Source: Gemmatimonadota bacterium
Lineage (GTDB): Bacteria > Gemmatimonadota > Gemmatimonadetes > Gemmatimonadales > GWC2-71-9
Assembly: GCA_003169895.1 (NCBI GenBank)
Contig: PNAE01000007.1
Coordinates: 399,603-463,602, forward strand
Direction: 5' to 3'
DNA length: 64,000 bases
Made by a program: the position numbers and the translations under genes. Under the pieces are notes generated by a model. The model was not told the DNA's origin and did not search any database. It saw only the letters and a program-made list of their open reading frames with translations. Below, piece by piece: positions 3,116 through 8,864 of this stretch. The first letter of the stretch is position 1, and the number at the start of each line of letters is the position of its first letter.

Positions 3116-4000
3116 ATGATGCGGGGCAGGGTCTGTCTGGTAACCGGAGCGAATCGCGGTATCGGTCGCGCCATCGCGGAAGGCCTGGCACGTCAAGGTG
3201 CGATCGTACTGATGGTGTGCCGTAACGGCGAACTCGGCGAGATCGCGAAGGCACAGATCATGGCTGCAACCGGAAACCACCAGCTCGAGTTGTTCATCGC
3301 CGACCTGTCGGTGCAGTCTCAGGTGCGACAGCTGGTGCGTGACGTCACGGCGCACCATGCCCGCCTGGACGTACTGATCAACAACGCCGGCGCTTTCCTT
3401 GCCCGCCGCACCATGACCGTGGACAACATCGAGGCTACGTTCGCGGTGAATCATCTCGCCTGCTTCATTCTCGTGAACGGGCTGGCCGACGTGTTGCAGG
3501 CAAGCGCCCCCGCGCGGGTGGTTGTCGTGGCCTCCGAGGCGCACCAGCGGGTGAGCGATTCCGAGGATTGGTTGAGTGTGCGTGAGTACAACGGCCGCAC
3601 CGCGTACAACCGGTCGAAGCTTGCGAACGTGATCTTCAGCTACGACCTGGCCCATCGGCTCGAGGCTACCGGTATCACGGTGAACTGCTGCCACCCGGGA
3701 GTGGTCGACACACCGGTCCTGCGTGGACTGTATGATCGCTGGTGGTCACGATGGATGTGGCCAATAGTTCGCCGCTTCACGATTACGCCGGAAGCGAGCG
3801 CCAGGACGGCGCTGTACCTTGCCGGTTCGCCGGACGTCGAAGGCGTCACCGGCAAGTATTTCAAGGACTCGCGGCCGGCTACGTCGTCATTGATCTCGCA
3901 CGATCCCGTCATTGGTGCGCGCCTGTGGAACCTGTCGCTGCGCTTGACCGGCGAACTGCCGCCGATCACCGTCGCCGGTGAAATCATCGCGGCCCACTGA
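3116..4000 (+). CDS. short-chain dehydrogenase/reductase (retinol dehydrogenase-like)
   Basis: A 294-residue classical SDR. The NAD(P)-binding motif TGANRGIG lies at residues 10-17, NNAG near residue 93, and the catalytic Tyr-Lys pair is YNRSK (Y164, K168). The C-terminal part (HPGVVDTPVLRG and following) resembles the retinol dehydrogenase/WWOX-like SDR group. Start: ATG 3116 and ATG 3119 are adjacent and in frame, immediately after GGGAGGG; the frame is open further upstream but that part has no SDR character. Substrate unknown. Because a pterin operon begins about 1 kb downstream, a pterin-type reductase is conceivable, but nothing in the sequence supports that over other SDR activities. 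Confidence 0.8.
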   Translation: MMRGRVCLVTGANRGIGRAIAEGLARQGAIVLMVCRNGELGEIAKAQIMAATGNHQLELFIADLSVQSQVRQLVRDVTAHHARLDVLINNAGAFLARRTMTVDNIEATFAVNHLACFILVNGLADVLQASAPARVVVVASEAHQRVSDSEDWLSVREYNGRTAYNRSKLANVIFSYDLAHRLEATGITVNCCHPGVVDTPVLRGLYDRWWSRWMWPIVRRFTITPEASARTALYLAGSPDVEGVTGKYFKDSRPATSSLISHDPVIGARLWNLSLRLTGELPPITVAGEIIAAH

Positions 4001-4023
4001 CGAGACCCGGTAACAGAACAACA

Positions 4024-4067
4024 ACCAGCAGAGAGACGGCTTCAGGCGGTGCCGCCTCCCTGCTGGT
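4024..4067. terminator. bidirectional hairpin terminator
   Basis: ACCAGCAG (4024-4031) pairs with CTGCTGGT (4060-4067), and the inner GGCGG-TG-CCGCC (4045-4056) forms a second stem. It lies between the convergent SDR gene and the gene ending at 4112. No strong T tract follows on either side, so this is a structural call. Confidence 0.5.
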
Positions 4068-4111
4068 CGCTTGGCGCTCAGTGCTCTATGACTGCAGATG
4101 CTTTCGCATCG

Positions 4112-4819
4112 TTATGGCCGCGGGCGGTTCCGACCATTGCCGCGGTCACCACCCTGTCGCCCATCACGTCCATTGGTCCGACCTTGCGGCGCAGGCTGGA
4201 CTTGGCGACCGCCATCTCGAGGCGCGGACTGAAACTGGCGCCCATCACGACCATTTTGAGGCGCGGACTGAAACTGGCGCCCATCGCGACCATTTTGAGG
4301 CGCGGCCTGGAACTGGCGCCCATCACGCCCGTTGCGCGGAATCGACTGGTACTGCCGGCCGTCGCGCGGCATCGCCTGGTACTGCCGACCGTCGCGCTGG
4401 ATTGGCCGATAGTCCCGCACATCGTTCCGATAGCCAAAGGCCCCACCGTAGTTGCCACCGGTGCGATAGTCGCGCCGCCAGATTTCGAACCCTCGGTCGC
4501 GCGGTGGGAGAAAGAACTCGTTCCGGTAGCTGTACACCACCACTGGCTCGGCGTACTCGACGACGGGATAGTCGTAGTAGTACCCGTCGTAGTAATACAG
4601 CGTGACAGGTGCCCACTGGTCGTAATAGCTGTCCCAGGCACCGAAGCGGGACGCGTCGTAGTCACGAACGATGATTTGGCGGCGCGAGGCACCGTAGGCA
4701 ACCGGGGCTCGGCGGCCGAGCGGAATATCAAGATGCAGGCGTGCCGATACCTGAGCTCCAGCCGGCGCAGCGCTGAGAGCGGCAAGAACGGGAACGGCAG
4801 CCAGGAATGGCATTCGCAT
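4112..4819 (-). CDS. secreted Tyr-rich protein with tandem 13-residue repeats
   Basis: Predicted 235 residues. The start chosen is ATG 4819, because GGAGG lies 5-6 bases upstream; an upstream in-frame ATG at 4831 lacks such a site. An N-terminal signal peptide (MRMPFLAAVPVLAALSAAPA, cleavage near AGAQ) is followed by a Tyr/Asp-rich section (YYYDGYYYDYP) and a basic, Gln/Arg/Gly-rich C-terminal half. That half contains NGRDGRQF(Q)xAPQ units of 13 residues, three nearly identical in a row, with further diverged DGRQ-containing segments around them. This looks like an extracytoplasmic low-complexity protein that binds surfaces or polymers. No enzyme motif is seen and no family is recognised. Confidence 0.65.
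   Translation of the reverse strand: MRMPFLAAVPVLAALSAAPAGAQVSARLHLDIPLGRRAPVAYGASRRQIIVRDYDASRFGAWDSYYDQWAPVTLYYYDGYYYDYPVVEYAEPVVVYSYRNEFFLPPRDRGFEIWRRDYRTGGNYGGAFGYRNDVRDYRPIQRDGRQYQAMPRDGRQYQSIPRNGRDGRQFQAAPQNGRDGRQFQSAPQNGRDGRQFQSAPRDGGRQVQPAPQGRTNGRDGRQGGDRGNGRNRPRP
4220..4336. repeat. 39-bp tandem repeat inside a coding region
   Basis: Three head-to-tail 39-bp units (4220-4258, 4259-4297, 4298-4336). The first two differ at one base; the third has several differences. The unit length is a multiple of three and encodes the 13-residue repeats of the secreted protein, so copy number can change without frameshift. Confidence 0.85.
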
Positions 4820-5051
4820 AACGACCTCCATTGAGACGTGTGACTTACGGCTCCTCAATGAGCGACCTCCGTGCCAACCCATAAGCCGTTGCTTGACAAT
4901 GACATGAACGATTGAGTGCTGGACTCGCGTGTCCCAACGCCGGGACACGGTTGCCGTGGGCGGAGATAACGGGAATCCATGAAACAACCGGGACCGCTGG
5001 GACAAGCGCTCCTTGTTATGTTCGTTGCTCCGACAAGTCCTGGGAGTATCG

Positions 5052-5555
5052 ATGGGCACTTTCCGCGTCACTGTCAGCAAGGACTATCTCGGCTTCGCGG
5101 CGGCTCATTTCCTCACTTTTCGCGGCCATGCCTGCGAGTCGTTGCATGGCCACAACTATCGCGTCGCCATGACGATTGAAGGTCCGGTCGATCCCGAATG
5201 CAATTTCGTGATCGATTTCGCGGTCGTAAAGCGGACGCTCCGCAAACAGGTTGAGTTACTTGATCATCGTGTCCTGCTGCCGACCAGAAATCCGAAGCTG
5301 AGCTACCGTGAGGCAGGCGACATGACGATGGTCGAGTATCTGGGAGCACTGACCTATCAGTTTCCCACCCGGGATTGCGTCATGCTTCCCATCACCAACT
5401 CGACCGCCGAGATGATCGCGGAATGGATGGCCAACACCGTGCGAGACGAGCTGCTGGCGACGGGGGCGGTCATCGAGTCGCTCGAGCTCGAGGTTGAAGA
5501 ATCCCCTGGCCAGTCGGCGATCTACGGTGAACGCCGCAGTGAAGACCGGCCTTAG
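5052..5555 (+). CDS. 6-pyruvoyltetrahydropterin synthase / QueD family, CExxHGH type
   Basis: 167 residues, start ATG 5052 with GGGAG five bases upstream. Zinc ligands are the His in AAHF and both His of HGH. The active-site loop is C-E-S-L-H-G-H, followed by LDH (catalytic Asp/His pair) and NSTAEMIAEW (conserved Glu). Plain QueD and eukaryotic PTPS carry CxxxHGH, and the folate-route PTPS-III enzymes carry ExxHGH. The combined CExxHGH is, from literature memory, the PTPS-I/III type able to serve both queuosine and folate routes. The product acts on 7,8-dihydroneopterin triphosphate or dihydroneopterin. It is first in an operon with a pterin dehydratase and PabB/PabA, which favours a folate role; BH4 or preQ0 synthesis remain possible. 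Confidence 0.85.
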   Translation: MGTFRVTVSKDYLGFAAAHFLTFRGHACESLHGHNYRVAMTIEGPVDPECNFVIDFAVVKRTLRKQVELLDHRVLLPTRNPKLSYREAGDMTMVEYLGALTYQFPTRDCVMLPITNSTAEMIAEWMANTVRDELLATGAVIESLELEVEESPGQSAIYGERRSEDRP

Positions 5556-5570
5556 CGAAGGATCTGATCC

Positions 5571-5924
5571 GTGAAAACACACGAACCGGTATACGACGGT
5601 ATGGCCCTCAGCGCGAAGCTCGTCGGCCTGGCGCACTGGTCACATCGGGACGGCTGGTTGCAGCGGGAATTCAAGACCGATGGCTGGCGCACCACGATGC
5701 TGGTGGTCAACGCGATTGCCTTCGTCGCCGAGGCAGCCAACCATCATCCCGATATGGAAGTCCACTGGGGAAGCGTGGTTGTGCGGTTGCAGACGCATTC
5801 CGCAGGCGGCGTGACCGACAAGGACCTCCAATTGGCGGACCGGATCGAGATTACGGTCATGTGGCGGCCCATGGGCAAGTTCCCTAGCCTCGAAGGGCAG
5901 CCGGGAGCATGGATCGCAAGCTGA
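5571..5924 (+). CDS. phhB: pterin-4a-carbinolamine dehydratase
   Basis: 117 residues from a GTG start at 5571, 15 bp after the PTPS-family gene. The family signature is clear: EAANHHPDMEVHWG, with the paired active-site His and Pro, followed by VVVRLQTHSAGGVTDKDLQLA. The enzyme dehydrates 4a-hydroxytetrahydropterin, regenerating pterin cofactor after aromatic amino-acid hydroxylation. In several bacteria members are found in folate or molybdopterin contexts without a hydroxylase. No phenylalanine hydroxylase gene is in the window. The last 16 bases overlap the start of pabB, implying translational coupling. Confidence 0.9.
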   Translation: MKTHEPVYDGMALSAKLVGLAHWSHRDGWLQREFKTDGWRTTMLVVNAIAFVAEAANHHPDMEVHWGSVVVRLQTHSAGGVTDKDLQLADRIEITVMWRPMGKFPSLEGQPGAWIAS

Positions 5925-7312
5925 ACCCAACCAGGGAGCTCCCCGATTCAGCGGCTGTAGCGATCCAGTTGGAGGGCAGCCGCGGGCCATTGGAGACCCT
6001 GGCTCACTTCACCGATCTGCCGCATGTCTGCCTGCTGCACAGCGCGGCGCTCGACCATCCGCTGAGCCGCTACAGCTTCCTGGCGGCCGACCCGGTAACC
6101 GTCATCACGGAGCGAGCGGAGGGATGGCCGTCGGCGCGCCAACGGGTGCGTGCCACCACGCGATCCGGTGCGCTGTCATTCCCCGGGTTGCCGCCGCTGC
6201 AGGGCGGGTGGATCGGGTGGTTCAGCTACGAGCTCGGCACGGCGTTCGACCGCACCGTTCGCCATCAATACGAGCCCGTCACCGTGCCGGACGTCGCGCT
6301 CGGGTTGTATGACTGGGTCATCGCCTGGGACCACGAAACGGCAGAAACCTGGCTCGTCAGCAGCGGTGTCGACTCATCAGGCATTCGCGATCGCGGGAGG
6401 GCGAGGCGGCGCGCCGACATGGCGCTCGAGCGCTGGTGCGCCGCTCCTGCCGGGATGCGCCTGTCGCAAGCCTGCCATCCTCCTGCGCAGTTGCAATCGG
6501 ATTTCACCGCCGATGCGTATCAGCGCGCGATAGCAGCAGGAATCGAGCACGTCCTGGCCGGTGACATCTTCCAGGTGAATCTGGCGCAGCGGTTCAGCGC
6601 CCCGTTTGCCGCGAGCCCGGTGTCGCTCTATCGGGAACTCTGCGAGCGTACCGCTGCGCCGATGGCAGCGTTCATTCAGCACGACGGCATTCACGTTCTG
6701 AGCGCATCGCCGGAGCGGTTTCTCCGGTTTGATCCTCGCACCAGGCACGTCGAGACGAGCCCAATCAAGGGAACCAGGCCGCGACACGCGGACGCGGCTG
6801 AGGACACGCGGCTCGCCCGGGAGTTGCAGGCCAGTGACAAGGACCGGGCCGAGAACGTGATGATCGTGGACCTGCAGCGAAATGACCTGGCCCGCGTGTG
6901 CCTGCCCGGCTCGGTCCGCGTACCAACACTCAACGCACTGGAGTCGCACCCCACCGTCCATCACCTGGTGTCGACCGTCACCGGCGAGCTGGGTCCCGAC
7001 CGCGACGCCCTGGACCTGCTGGCGGCAACTTTTCCCGGCGGCTCTATCACGGGAGCTCCGAAATTGCGCGCCATGGCCGTTATTGGGGAGCTCGAGCCCG
7101 TAGCCCGAGGCGTCTACTCGGGAGCAATCGGATGGATCGGACTTGATGGCGCGATGGACATCAACATCGCGATTCGCACGGTGACAATCGCGGACGGCAT
7201 GGCAACGTTCCACGCCGGCGGAGCAATCACAGCGCAGTCGGACCCGGCGGACGAGTATCGCGAGTCCCTGGACAAGGCACGCGCGCTGGTCGCCGCGATG
7301 ATCGCGGCATGA
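5909..7312 (+). CDS. pabB: aminodeoxychorismate synthase component I
   Basis: 467 residues of the chorismate-binding family. It has the N-terminal anthranilate-synthase-I-like domain followed by the catalytic half with ETSPIKGTRPRH, ENVMIVDLQRNDLARVC, FPGGSITGAPK and YSGAIGWIG. PIKGT is typical of PabB (Lys-bearing) enzymes, whereas TrpE has PIAGT; this favours p-aminobenzoate over anthranilate synthesis. It uses ammonia supplied by the amidotransferase encoded next. The gene overlaps phhB by 16 bases and pabA by the 4-base ATGA at 7309-7312, so the two subunits are translationally coupled. With the upstream pterin genes this gives both halves of the folate precursor. Confidence 0.9.
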   Translation: MDRKLNPTRELPDSAAVAIQLEGSRGPLETLAHFTDLPHVCLLHSAALDHPLSRYSFLAADPVTVITERAEGWPSARQRVRATTRSGALSFPGLPPLQGGWIGWFSYELGTAFDRTVRHQYEPVTVPDVALGLYDWVIAWDHETAETWLVSSGVDSSGIRDRGRARRRADMALERWCAAPAGMRLSQACHPPAQLQSDFTADAYQRAIAAGIEHVLAGDIFQVNLAQRFSAPFAASPVSLYRELCERTAAPMAAFIQHDGIHVLSASPERFLRFDPRTRHVETSPIKGTRPRHADAAEDTRLARELQASDKDRAENVMIVDLQRNDLARVCLPGSVRVPTLNALESHPTVHHLVSTVTGELGPDRDALDLLAATFPGGSITGAPKLRAMAVIGELEPVARGVYSGAIGWIGLDGAMDINIAIRTVTIADGMATFHAGGAITAQSDPADEYRESLDKARALVAAMIAA

Positions 7313-7965
7313 TCCTGTTGCTCGATCACGACGACTCATTCGTCTTCACGCTGGCCAGGTACGTGGCGGAACTCGGCGAGGAGCCGAACGTGGTCCGCGC
7401 CAGCACGACGAGCGTCGAAGCCATCACCGCGCGCCCGCCTGCCCGGATCATCCTGTCTCCGGGACCGGGTACACCGGATGACTGCTCGATTGCCGTCGGC
7501 GTCATCCGGGCCCTCGGCGCAACCGTGCCGATTCTCGGTGTGTGCCTCGGCCATCAGTGTGTTGCTGCCGCTTATGGCGCCCGCGTGGAACGCTCGCTGC
7601 ATCCACGACACGGCCGGACGTCGATCATCAATCATGACGGTCGCGGGATCTTCCTCGATGTGCCGGCCCGGTTCCGGGCTGCCCGTTACCATTCGCTTTC
7701 GGTCGCAGCGACGACGTTGCCGCCGGCGCTCACACTGACCGCCGTCGCGGATGACGGCGACGTCATGGGTGTCAGACACCGGGTGCATCCCGTCGAGGGC
7801 GTGCAGTTTCATCCAGAATCAGTGCTGACTGAGTGGGGTCATCGGATGCTCGCGAATTTTCTCGGCATCGCTGGTGCCGGCCTGGGAATGGAGGCCGATC
7901 AAGCCACGTTATGCTTCACGCCATGCCCTCCCTCCACGCCAGAGCCATTGCCACCCTCGTGTTGA
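7309..7965 (+). CDS. pabA: aminodeoxychorismate synthase amidotransferase (component II)
   Basis: 218-residue class I glutamine amidotransferase. The catalytic Cys is in GVCLGHQC and the His/Glu pair in GVQFHPESV; SPGPGTP marks the oxyanion region. The N-terminus (MILLLDHDDSFVFTLARYV) is typical of TrpG/PabA. It hydrolyses glutamine to feed ammonia to PabB. The protein is about 25 residues longer than usual at the C-terminus. That tail is read in a region that also encodes the start of the next gene (overlap about 55 bp) and is low in conservation features, so it may be a passive extension. Assignment to PabA rather than TrpG rests on the partner subunit. Confidence 0.88.
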   Translation: MILLLDHDDSFVFTLARYVAELGEEPNVVRASTTSVEAITARPPARIILSPGPGTPDDCSIAVGVIRALGATVPILGVCLGHQCVAAAYGARVERSLHPRHGRTSIINHDGRGIFLDVPARFRAARYHSLSVAATTLPPALTLTAVADDGDVMGVRHRVHPVEGVQFHPESVLTEWGHRMLANFLGIAGAGLGMEADQATLCFTPCPPSTPEPLPPSC

Positions 7966-8864
7966 CTGCCGCTGCAAGCACGTCGGCACTGCCCGCTGCT
8001 GGCCAGGTTGCCGACACCGGTGTTGGCCACGCAACGCAATTATTCGATACTGCGCGCCCACCGGTGACCGCCAGGCCGGTGCCGGTGTTACCCGGCGCGT
8101 TGTTCCCGGGGACACGCATCATCGCTTACTACGGCAACCCGATGTCGGCGCAGATGGGGATCCTCGGCGCATTACCGCCGGAACAGATGCTGGACAAACT
8201 CGCGGCAACTGCCAAGGAATGGGCGAAGGCGGACACTTCGCGCCAGGTTCGACCCGCACTGCAACTCATCGTCACCGTCGCGCAAGCTCGCCGGGGAATC
8301 GACGGGAAATACCGGGTCCGCCATCCCGATTCGCTCATTGCACGGGTCGCCGGGTGGGCGGAACAACGGAACTGGCTGATGTTCCTGGACGTACAGGTGG
8401 GCCAGAGTACGGTGCCGGCGGAACTCGCACGCCTGATTCCGTGGCTGCGCAAGCCGTGGGTCCACCTCGCGCTCGATCCCGAGTTTGCGATGAATGACGG
8501 CCGGATCCCCGGCAAGAAGTTCGGCACACTTGACGCCCGGGACGTGAACTACGCGATCGATCTGCTGGCGCGCCTGGTCGACGAGGGGCACCTCCCCCCA
8601 AAGGTGCTCGTGGTGCATCGCTTCACGGAAGACATGCTCACGAACTATCGCCTGATCAAGCAGGACCCGCGAGTTCAGGTAGTGGTCGACATGGATGGAT
8701 ACGGCGAGCCGATCTTGAAGCGACACATCTATGACCTGATCGTCGGGCGGCGCCCGGTCCAGTTCACCGGGTTCAAGCTGTTCTACAAGAACGACCACCC
8801 GATGATGACGCTCCGCGAGGTACTGGCGTTGCAACCCACGCCACTCTACATCCAGTACCAATGA
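7911..8864 (+). CDS. secreted protein of unknown function, possible TIM-barrel fold
   Basis: About 317 residues. The start is taken at ATG 7911, with ATG 7923 equally possible; upstream codons in this frame look like pabA sequence. It has a signal peptide (HARAIATLVLTAAASTSALP, cleavage near AAGQ), then a ~280-residue domain opening with TRIIAYYGNPMSAQMGILG. Alternating hydrophobic strands each end in acidic residues (MFLDVQ, VHLALDPEF, VVVDMDG), which suggests a (beta/alpha)8 barrel, perhaps glycosidase-like. I do not recognise the family. It overlaps pabA and shares an ATGA overlap with the cytochrome gene, so it is co-transcribed with both although a metabolic link is not obvious. Confidence 0.6.
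   Translation: MLHAMPSLHARAIATLVLTAAASTSALPAAGQVADTGVGHATQLFDTARPPVTARPVPVLPGALFPGTRIIAYYGNPMSAQMGILGALPPEQMLDKLAATAKEWAKADTSRQVRPALQLIVTVAQARRGIDGKYRVRHPDSLIARVAGWAEQRNWLMFLDVQVGQSTVPAELARLIPWLRKPWVHLALDPEFAMNDGRIPGKKFGTLDARDVNYAIDLLARLVDEGHLPPKVLVVHRFTEDMLTNYRLIKQDPRVQVVVDMDGYGEPILKRHIYDLIVGRRPVQFTGFKLFYKNDHPMMTLREVLALQPTPLYIQYQ

Follow-up and report, generated by a model that had tools for sequence, protein, structure and literature searches.

A Plasmodium-type PTPS-III encoded with PCD, PabB and PabA as the probable replacement of FolB in Gemmatimonadota

That a PTPS-III enzyme can take the place of FolB is already known. The PTPS of Plasmodium falciparum has been shown biochemically to convert DHNTP to 6HMDP, and mutation has shown that it needs Glu38 of its motif for this reaction (PMC2229834). 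Bacterial PTPS-III proteins with the motif ExxHGH stand in for FolB, and proteins with CExxHGH can serve both folate and queuosine (PMC5041015, PMC3223725). In the Gemmatimonadota, an H4MPT (tetrahydromethanopterin) island has also been reported, where THMPT biosynthesis lies beside methanol dehydrogenase (PMC5103831).

The PTPS described here resembles each of these systems and differs from each of them. With Plasmodium PTPS-III (structures 1y13 and 2a0s) it has in common the fold, an insert of about 35 residues, the Glu of ExxHGH and the absence of FolB from the genome; however, the bacterial loop has a Cys before the Glu and is one residue longer than that of the parasite, identity is about 32%, and the bacterial gene shares its operon with PCD and PabBA. 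The bacterial PTPS-III and PTPS-I/III proteins (COG0720) share with it the CExxHGH signature and the proposed replacement of FolB, whereas here the enzyme has PCD and the pABA genes as operon partners and is tied, in relatives, to the synthesis of H4MPT. QueD (PTPS-I; E. coli 4ntk) has CxxxHGH and the T-fold as well, but it lacks the insert, and our protein falls below the QueD cut-off and is encoded outside a queCE cluster. As for the H4MPT island, orthologs of all four genes occur in the islands of many relatives, while the genus studied here lacks Mch and has the compact four-gene core only.

The window, i.e. the whole stretch of 64,000 nucleotides that we analysed, comes from a Gemmatimonadota MAG of 3.42 Mb (13 contigs, 98% complete). 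It contains the following genes:

5052..5555, + strand: PTPS-I/III (COG0720), the proposed FolB replacement, 167 aa; Pfam PTPS, 84.1 bits, 9.8e-24
5571..5924, + strand: PCD/PhhB, pterin-4a-carbinolamine dehydratase, GTG start; Pfam Pterin_4a, 87.5 bits, 6.7e-25; NF002017 above its cut-off
5909..7312, + strand: PabB, aminodeoxychorismate synthase component I; Chorismate_bind, 290 bits; TIGR00553, 349.7 against a cut-off of 328.4
7309..7965, + strand: PabA, glutamine amidotransferase component; GATase, 167 bits, 5.1e-49; TIGR00566 above its cut-off

The four genes point in the same direction and their names agree in Pfam and NCBIfam. PCD and PabB overlap by 16 bp (5909-5924), PabB and PabA by 4 bp (ATGA, 7309-7312), so that the chain described in the initial annotation is borne out by coordinates and domain models alike; the genes are presumably co-transcribed. 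The order PTPS-PCD-PabB-PabA is kept in 8 of the 9 other members of the genus; in the ninth (G005), an assembly of 250 contigs, no match to the long PTPS, as we call the window type with its insert, was found. PabB is not a mislabelled TrpE, since a distinct TrpE gene, the second chorismate-binding gene of the genome, is present (C8:1164402; best model trpE_most, 498 bits) and the TIGR00553 cut-off is passed; the best PDB matches of PabB are the PabB structures 1k0e and 8rp2. No Rfam match to a riboswitch appeared at E up to 1 over positions 4000-8200. Divergent from the operon (4112-4831, - strand) lies a gene whose product is predicted to be secreted and has a NGRDGRQFQSAPQ-like repetitive tail.

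The active-site loop of the PTPS reads C28-E29-S30-L31-H32-G33-H34, just as had been noted from the sequence. It is not a chance string, because the C, the E and HGH are identical in 80 of 80 loci from public genomes and in all 14 rows of our alignment. The loop contains both the PTPS-III motif ExxHGH, starting at E29, and the PTPS-I (QueD) motif CxxxHGH, starting at C28; the PTPS-II (biopterin) motif CxxxxxHGH is absent, residue 26 being His. Judged by published signatures (PMC5041015), this is the sequence of a PTPS-I/III type. The score against the QueD equivalog model TIGR03367 is 72.5 bits, below the cut-off of 89.25. The closest solved relatives in profile searches are the two Plasmodium structures (109-114 bits, the next match reaching 55), and an AF2 model (pLDDT 89.4) gives Z 20.6 to 2a0s/1y13 against 13 to QueD. 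In both sequence and fold, Plasmodium PTPS is thus well ahead of QueD and of human PTPS. The insert, between the DH pair and the C-terminal helix, is common only to Plasmodium among the COG0720 proteins compared. A tree built without the insert and motif columns still joins the window PTPS to Plasmodium, with support of 90/90, which is under the strict threshold, and in our opinion this grouping is suggestive rather than firm. Taking alignment, predicted model and tree together, the protein is a Plasmodium-type PTPS-III and does not fall outside the PTPS-I/III group. The bacterial and apicomplexan enzymes with this insert may have a common origin.

We propose, with a probability of about 0.88, that the operon supplies the pterin as well as the pABA part of dihydropteroate, the former by a PTPS-III-type bypass in place of FolB. 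The PTPS would cut the side chain of 7,8-dihydroneopterin triphosphate, with Glu29 acting in a Zn/His active site, and would yield 6-hydroxymethyl-7,8-dihydropterin directly, bypassing FolB. PabB and PabA would make aminodeoxychorismate, the precursor of pABA, and FolK and FolP, whose genes lie at other sites of the genome, would join pterin to pABA. We infer the conversion of DHNTP to 6-hydroxymethyldihydropterin by this PTPS, as we do the presence of FolE in the genome.

The initial annotation suggested that PTPS replaces FolB, and the genomes agree with it. FolB (PF02152) was found neither in the window genome nor in any of the 9 other genus members, although 12 relatives and 10 of 14 control genomes gave a match in the same search. 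FolK (between trpA and panB) and FolP (C13:148725, 247 bits, distinct from MetH) are both encoded, which is the pattern by which a PTPS-III is recognized: FolB missing while its downstream partners are there. The long PTPS occurs without FolB in 15 of the 31 genomes of the order, and FolB without the long PTPS in 12; 4 have neither and none has both. Restricted to the 26 genomes with FolK, the figures are 12 with the window-type PTPS only, 12 with FolB only, 0 with both and 2 with neither; Fisher's test gives p 1e-5 if kinship is ignored, and since the genomes are phylogenetically non-independent these counts are inflated by it. Counting by genus gives 7, 7, 0 and 3 (p 0.0098). The two FolK-encoding genomes where neither enzyme was found, G005 and G016 (420 contigs), are both fragmented. 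Two others, G019 and G025, lack FolB, FolK and FolP together with the long PTPS. Both are nearly complete (G025 is a single contig), with a MetH-sized match only and no separate FolP; with FolK and FolP missing too, they do not seem to have the usual route to folate. Among 50 further genomes, which were reached through their window-type PTPS loci and for which completeness figures are not given, 46 give no FolB match above the cut-off, and in 4 the two coexist. One exception to the exclusion is locus L185, from a MAG titled Candidatus Sulfopaludibacter, whose genome combines a PTPS-PCD pair with two FolB genes. Another observation concerns G015, whose short PTPS (L058:6484-7185) reads CERMHGH and whose genome has FolB and no true QueC; given this case, the CExxHGH string alone is no predictor of FolB replacement.

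The most direct view of the replacement is offered by the folK locus. In G014 and G079 an MCP/GAF gene, folB, folK, panB and panC stand in a row. In G013 and G016 only a few bases separate the homologous MCP/GAF gene from folK-panB-panC, and folB is gone. This clean gap is direct evidence of folB loss, and in G013 it occurs in a genome with a long PTPS. A tblastn search of the folK loci, the PTPS paralog loci and the window with the FolB of two relatives returned trivial matches only, and no FolB remnant.

The retained cysteine raises the question of queuosine. The window genome has QueC (250 bits) adjoining QueE (TIGR04508, 345 bits) at C8:1798035, with no queD among the called neighbours of the pair, and three PTPS paralogs, one of them the window enzyme. 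Paralog A (C12:61705) overlaps an SDR gene and carries CxxxxxHGH, the PTPS-II motif; it looks like an enzyme of biopterin synthesis. Paralog C (L041:6520-6918; C8:1107531), one gene away from a moeA-like gene, has no Cys or Glu at the known catalytic places (HRYACDGPAADHGH), and its relatives likewise lack the catalytic Cys. Thus QueC and QueE are present and no separate canonical QueD is: no PTPS of the genome other than the window enzyme has a clean QueD motif. Because of this, a second role as QueD, acting through Cys28, is plausible. We give an even chance to the proposal that one enzyme serves folate and queuosine, which would extend the bypass reading and not exclude it. The invariance of the CE motif speaks for it, and bifunctional PTPS-I/III enzymes have a precedent (PMC5041015; protein A5I019 in PMC12506659). 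However, G019 and G021 have QueC, and the PTPS paralogs read there carry CxxxxxHGH only, so a paralog of that kind may act as QueD in this order; moreover, the cysteine is retained in G017, where no convincing QueC exists (22.3 bits, against about 250 for a true QueC).

The second question is what PCD does. The initial annotation had called it an unexplained partner, which is only partly so: it is the only PCD found in a genome that encodes PhhA (on C4, beside an HPPD-like gene), although PhhA does not explain its fixed place beside PTPS. The protein has a Pterin_4a domain with E-x3-HHP-x5-W-x9-H, including the canonical HHP catalytic stretch expected of a PCD (COG2154), and its sequence matches solved PCD/DCoH proteins. 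Most likely, at roughly even odds, it regenerates the tetrahydropterin cofactor, for PhhA in the window genome, and takes no part in the folate steps. PCD accompanies PhhA in 17 of 18 PhhA-encoding genomes of the order. An explanation of PCD simply by PhhA is not cleanly supported, however, since 11 of the 31 order genomes have PCD without PhhA; support of PhhA is a fair but incomplete account. These same 11 genomes could be turned into an argument that PCD works within the PTPS-III route itself, e.g. on a hydrated pterin intermediate, and the PTPS-PCD adjacency does persist at loci with no neighbouring PabB match (L154, L169, L178, L185). We consider this unlikely. G017 has PTPS-PabB-PabA with neither PCD nor PhhA found in its genome, and at L136 PabB follows PTPS directly, so the route can do without PCD. 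We also know of no bypass step that needs a dehydratase.

It might further be argued that the enzyme is mainly a QueD, that folate is obtained otherwise and that the neighbourhood of pabBA is incidental. The invariant CxxxHGH cysteine, the QueC-QueE pair with no queD beside it and the lack of CxxxHGH in both other paralogs would fit this, as would G014, which lacks the window-type enzyme and has FolB, a separate CDRLHGH PTPS and QueC. We find this very improbable, given that G017 has the enzyme without a convincing QueC, that the protein misses the QueD cut-off, that its gene sits with pabBA and not with queCE, and that the FolB-less genomes would be left unexplained.

To return to the bypass of FolB, its partners have a wider setting in the phylum. 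In many Gemmatimonadota, orthologs of PTPS, PCD, PabB and PabA are embedded in an island that also encodes Mch, an MptN-like ligase and a CitG-like protein. Its further members are 4-HFC-P synthase, an MfnF-like protein, an amino-acid kinase, a DHPS-like protein, DUF447 and formylmethanofuran dehydrogenase subunit C, together with the beginning of a beta-RFAP synthase gene. This is an island for the synthesis and use of H4MPT and methanofuran. At L118, L144, L153 and L161 such islands contain PTPS, SDR, PCD, PabB and PabA genes. The arrangement suggests that bacterial H4MPT islands have their own dedicated pterin and pABA supply; in a limited literature search we found no paper that had already placed these four genes in the island. 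Nor did a literature search joining carbinolamine dehydratase, aminodeoxychorismate and operon return a paper. The impression that the coupling of the four genes is unusual is right by comparison with textbook operons, but the coupling is common across the Gemmatimonadota, being part of the H4MPT island in those members that make H4MPT.

Of the 50 PTPS-carrying genomes, 27 have Mch and 23 are Mch-negative. The compact arrangement, defined as PCD no more than 700 bp from PTPS, occurs in 17 of the 23 Mch-negative genomes and in none of the 27 others. Although pABA is the substrate of beta-RFAP synthase and orthologous genes do sit in the island of Mch-encoding relatives, the idea that the operon supplies pterin and pABA for H4MPT instead of folate is hardly tenable in view of this distribution and of the absence of Mch, the one marker tested, from the window genome and all of its genus.

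The association of the FolB bypass with the island nevertheless invites a historical scenario, which we offer tentatively and rate at somewhat below an even chance. A PTPS-III within the H4MPT island, or shared with it, would also have given the pterin of folate; FolB would have become redundant and been lost from the folK-panB site; and lineages that later lost H4MPT could not have dropped PTPS-PCD-PabB-PabA, leaving the compact folate operon. In the family of the window genome, G012, G013 and G018 have Mch. In a concatenated tree the compact operons of Mch-negative genomes do not form a single group, and one set of them is nested among Mch-encoding genomes. At least 2 changes between H4MPT island and compact operon are needed on this tree, and 6 on a poorly resolved PTPS-only tree; the root is not fixed, hence we treat the history of H4MPT loss as a hypothesis. 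On its simplest reading, the core of pterin and pABA genes would persist after the loss of H4MPT, since a genome without folB needs it for folate. Three genomes (G063, G069, G079) have Mch and have kept FolB, adjoining folK and panB in each, which under this hypothesis is as expected of an intermediate state.

What is new here is that a Plasmodium-like insert occurs together with a retained Cys, that the gene shares an operon with those of PCD and PabBA, and that the enzyme is connected to the H4MPT island. For biology, this would supply a missing step of folate synthesis in much of a large and mostly uncultured phylum, where such a PTPS gene would tend to be annotated as QueD or as biopterin synthase. 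It connects the synthesis of folate with that of tetrahydromethanopterin through a single pterin enzyme, and one PTPS may serve folate, H4MPT and queuosine. The bacterial homologue of the malaria PTPS, alike in its insert and with an extra Cys, should be useful for learning how Cys and Glu decide the product. The relatives provide natural before-and-after genomes in which the takeover of one pathway's step by another can be tested.
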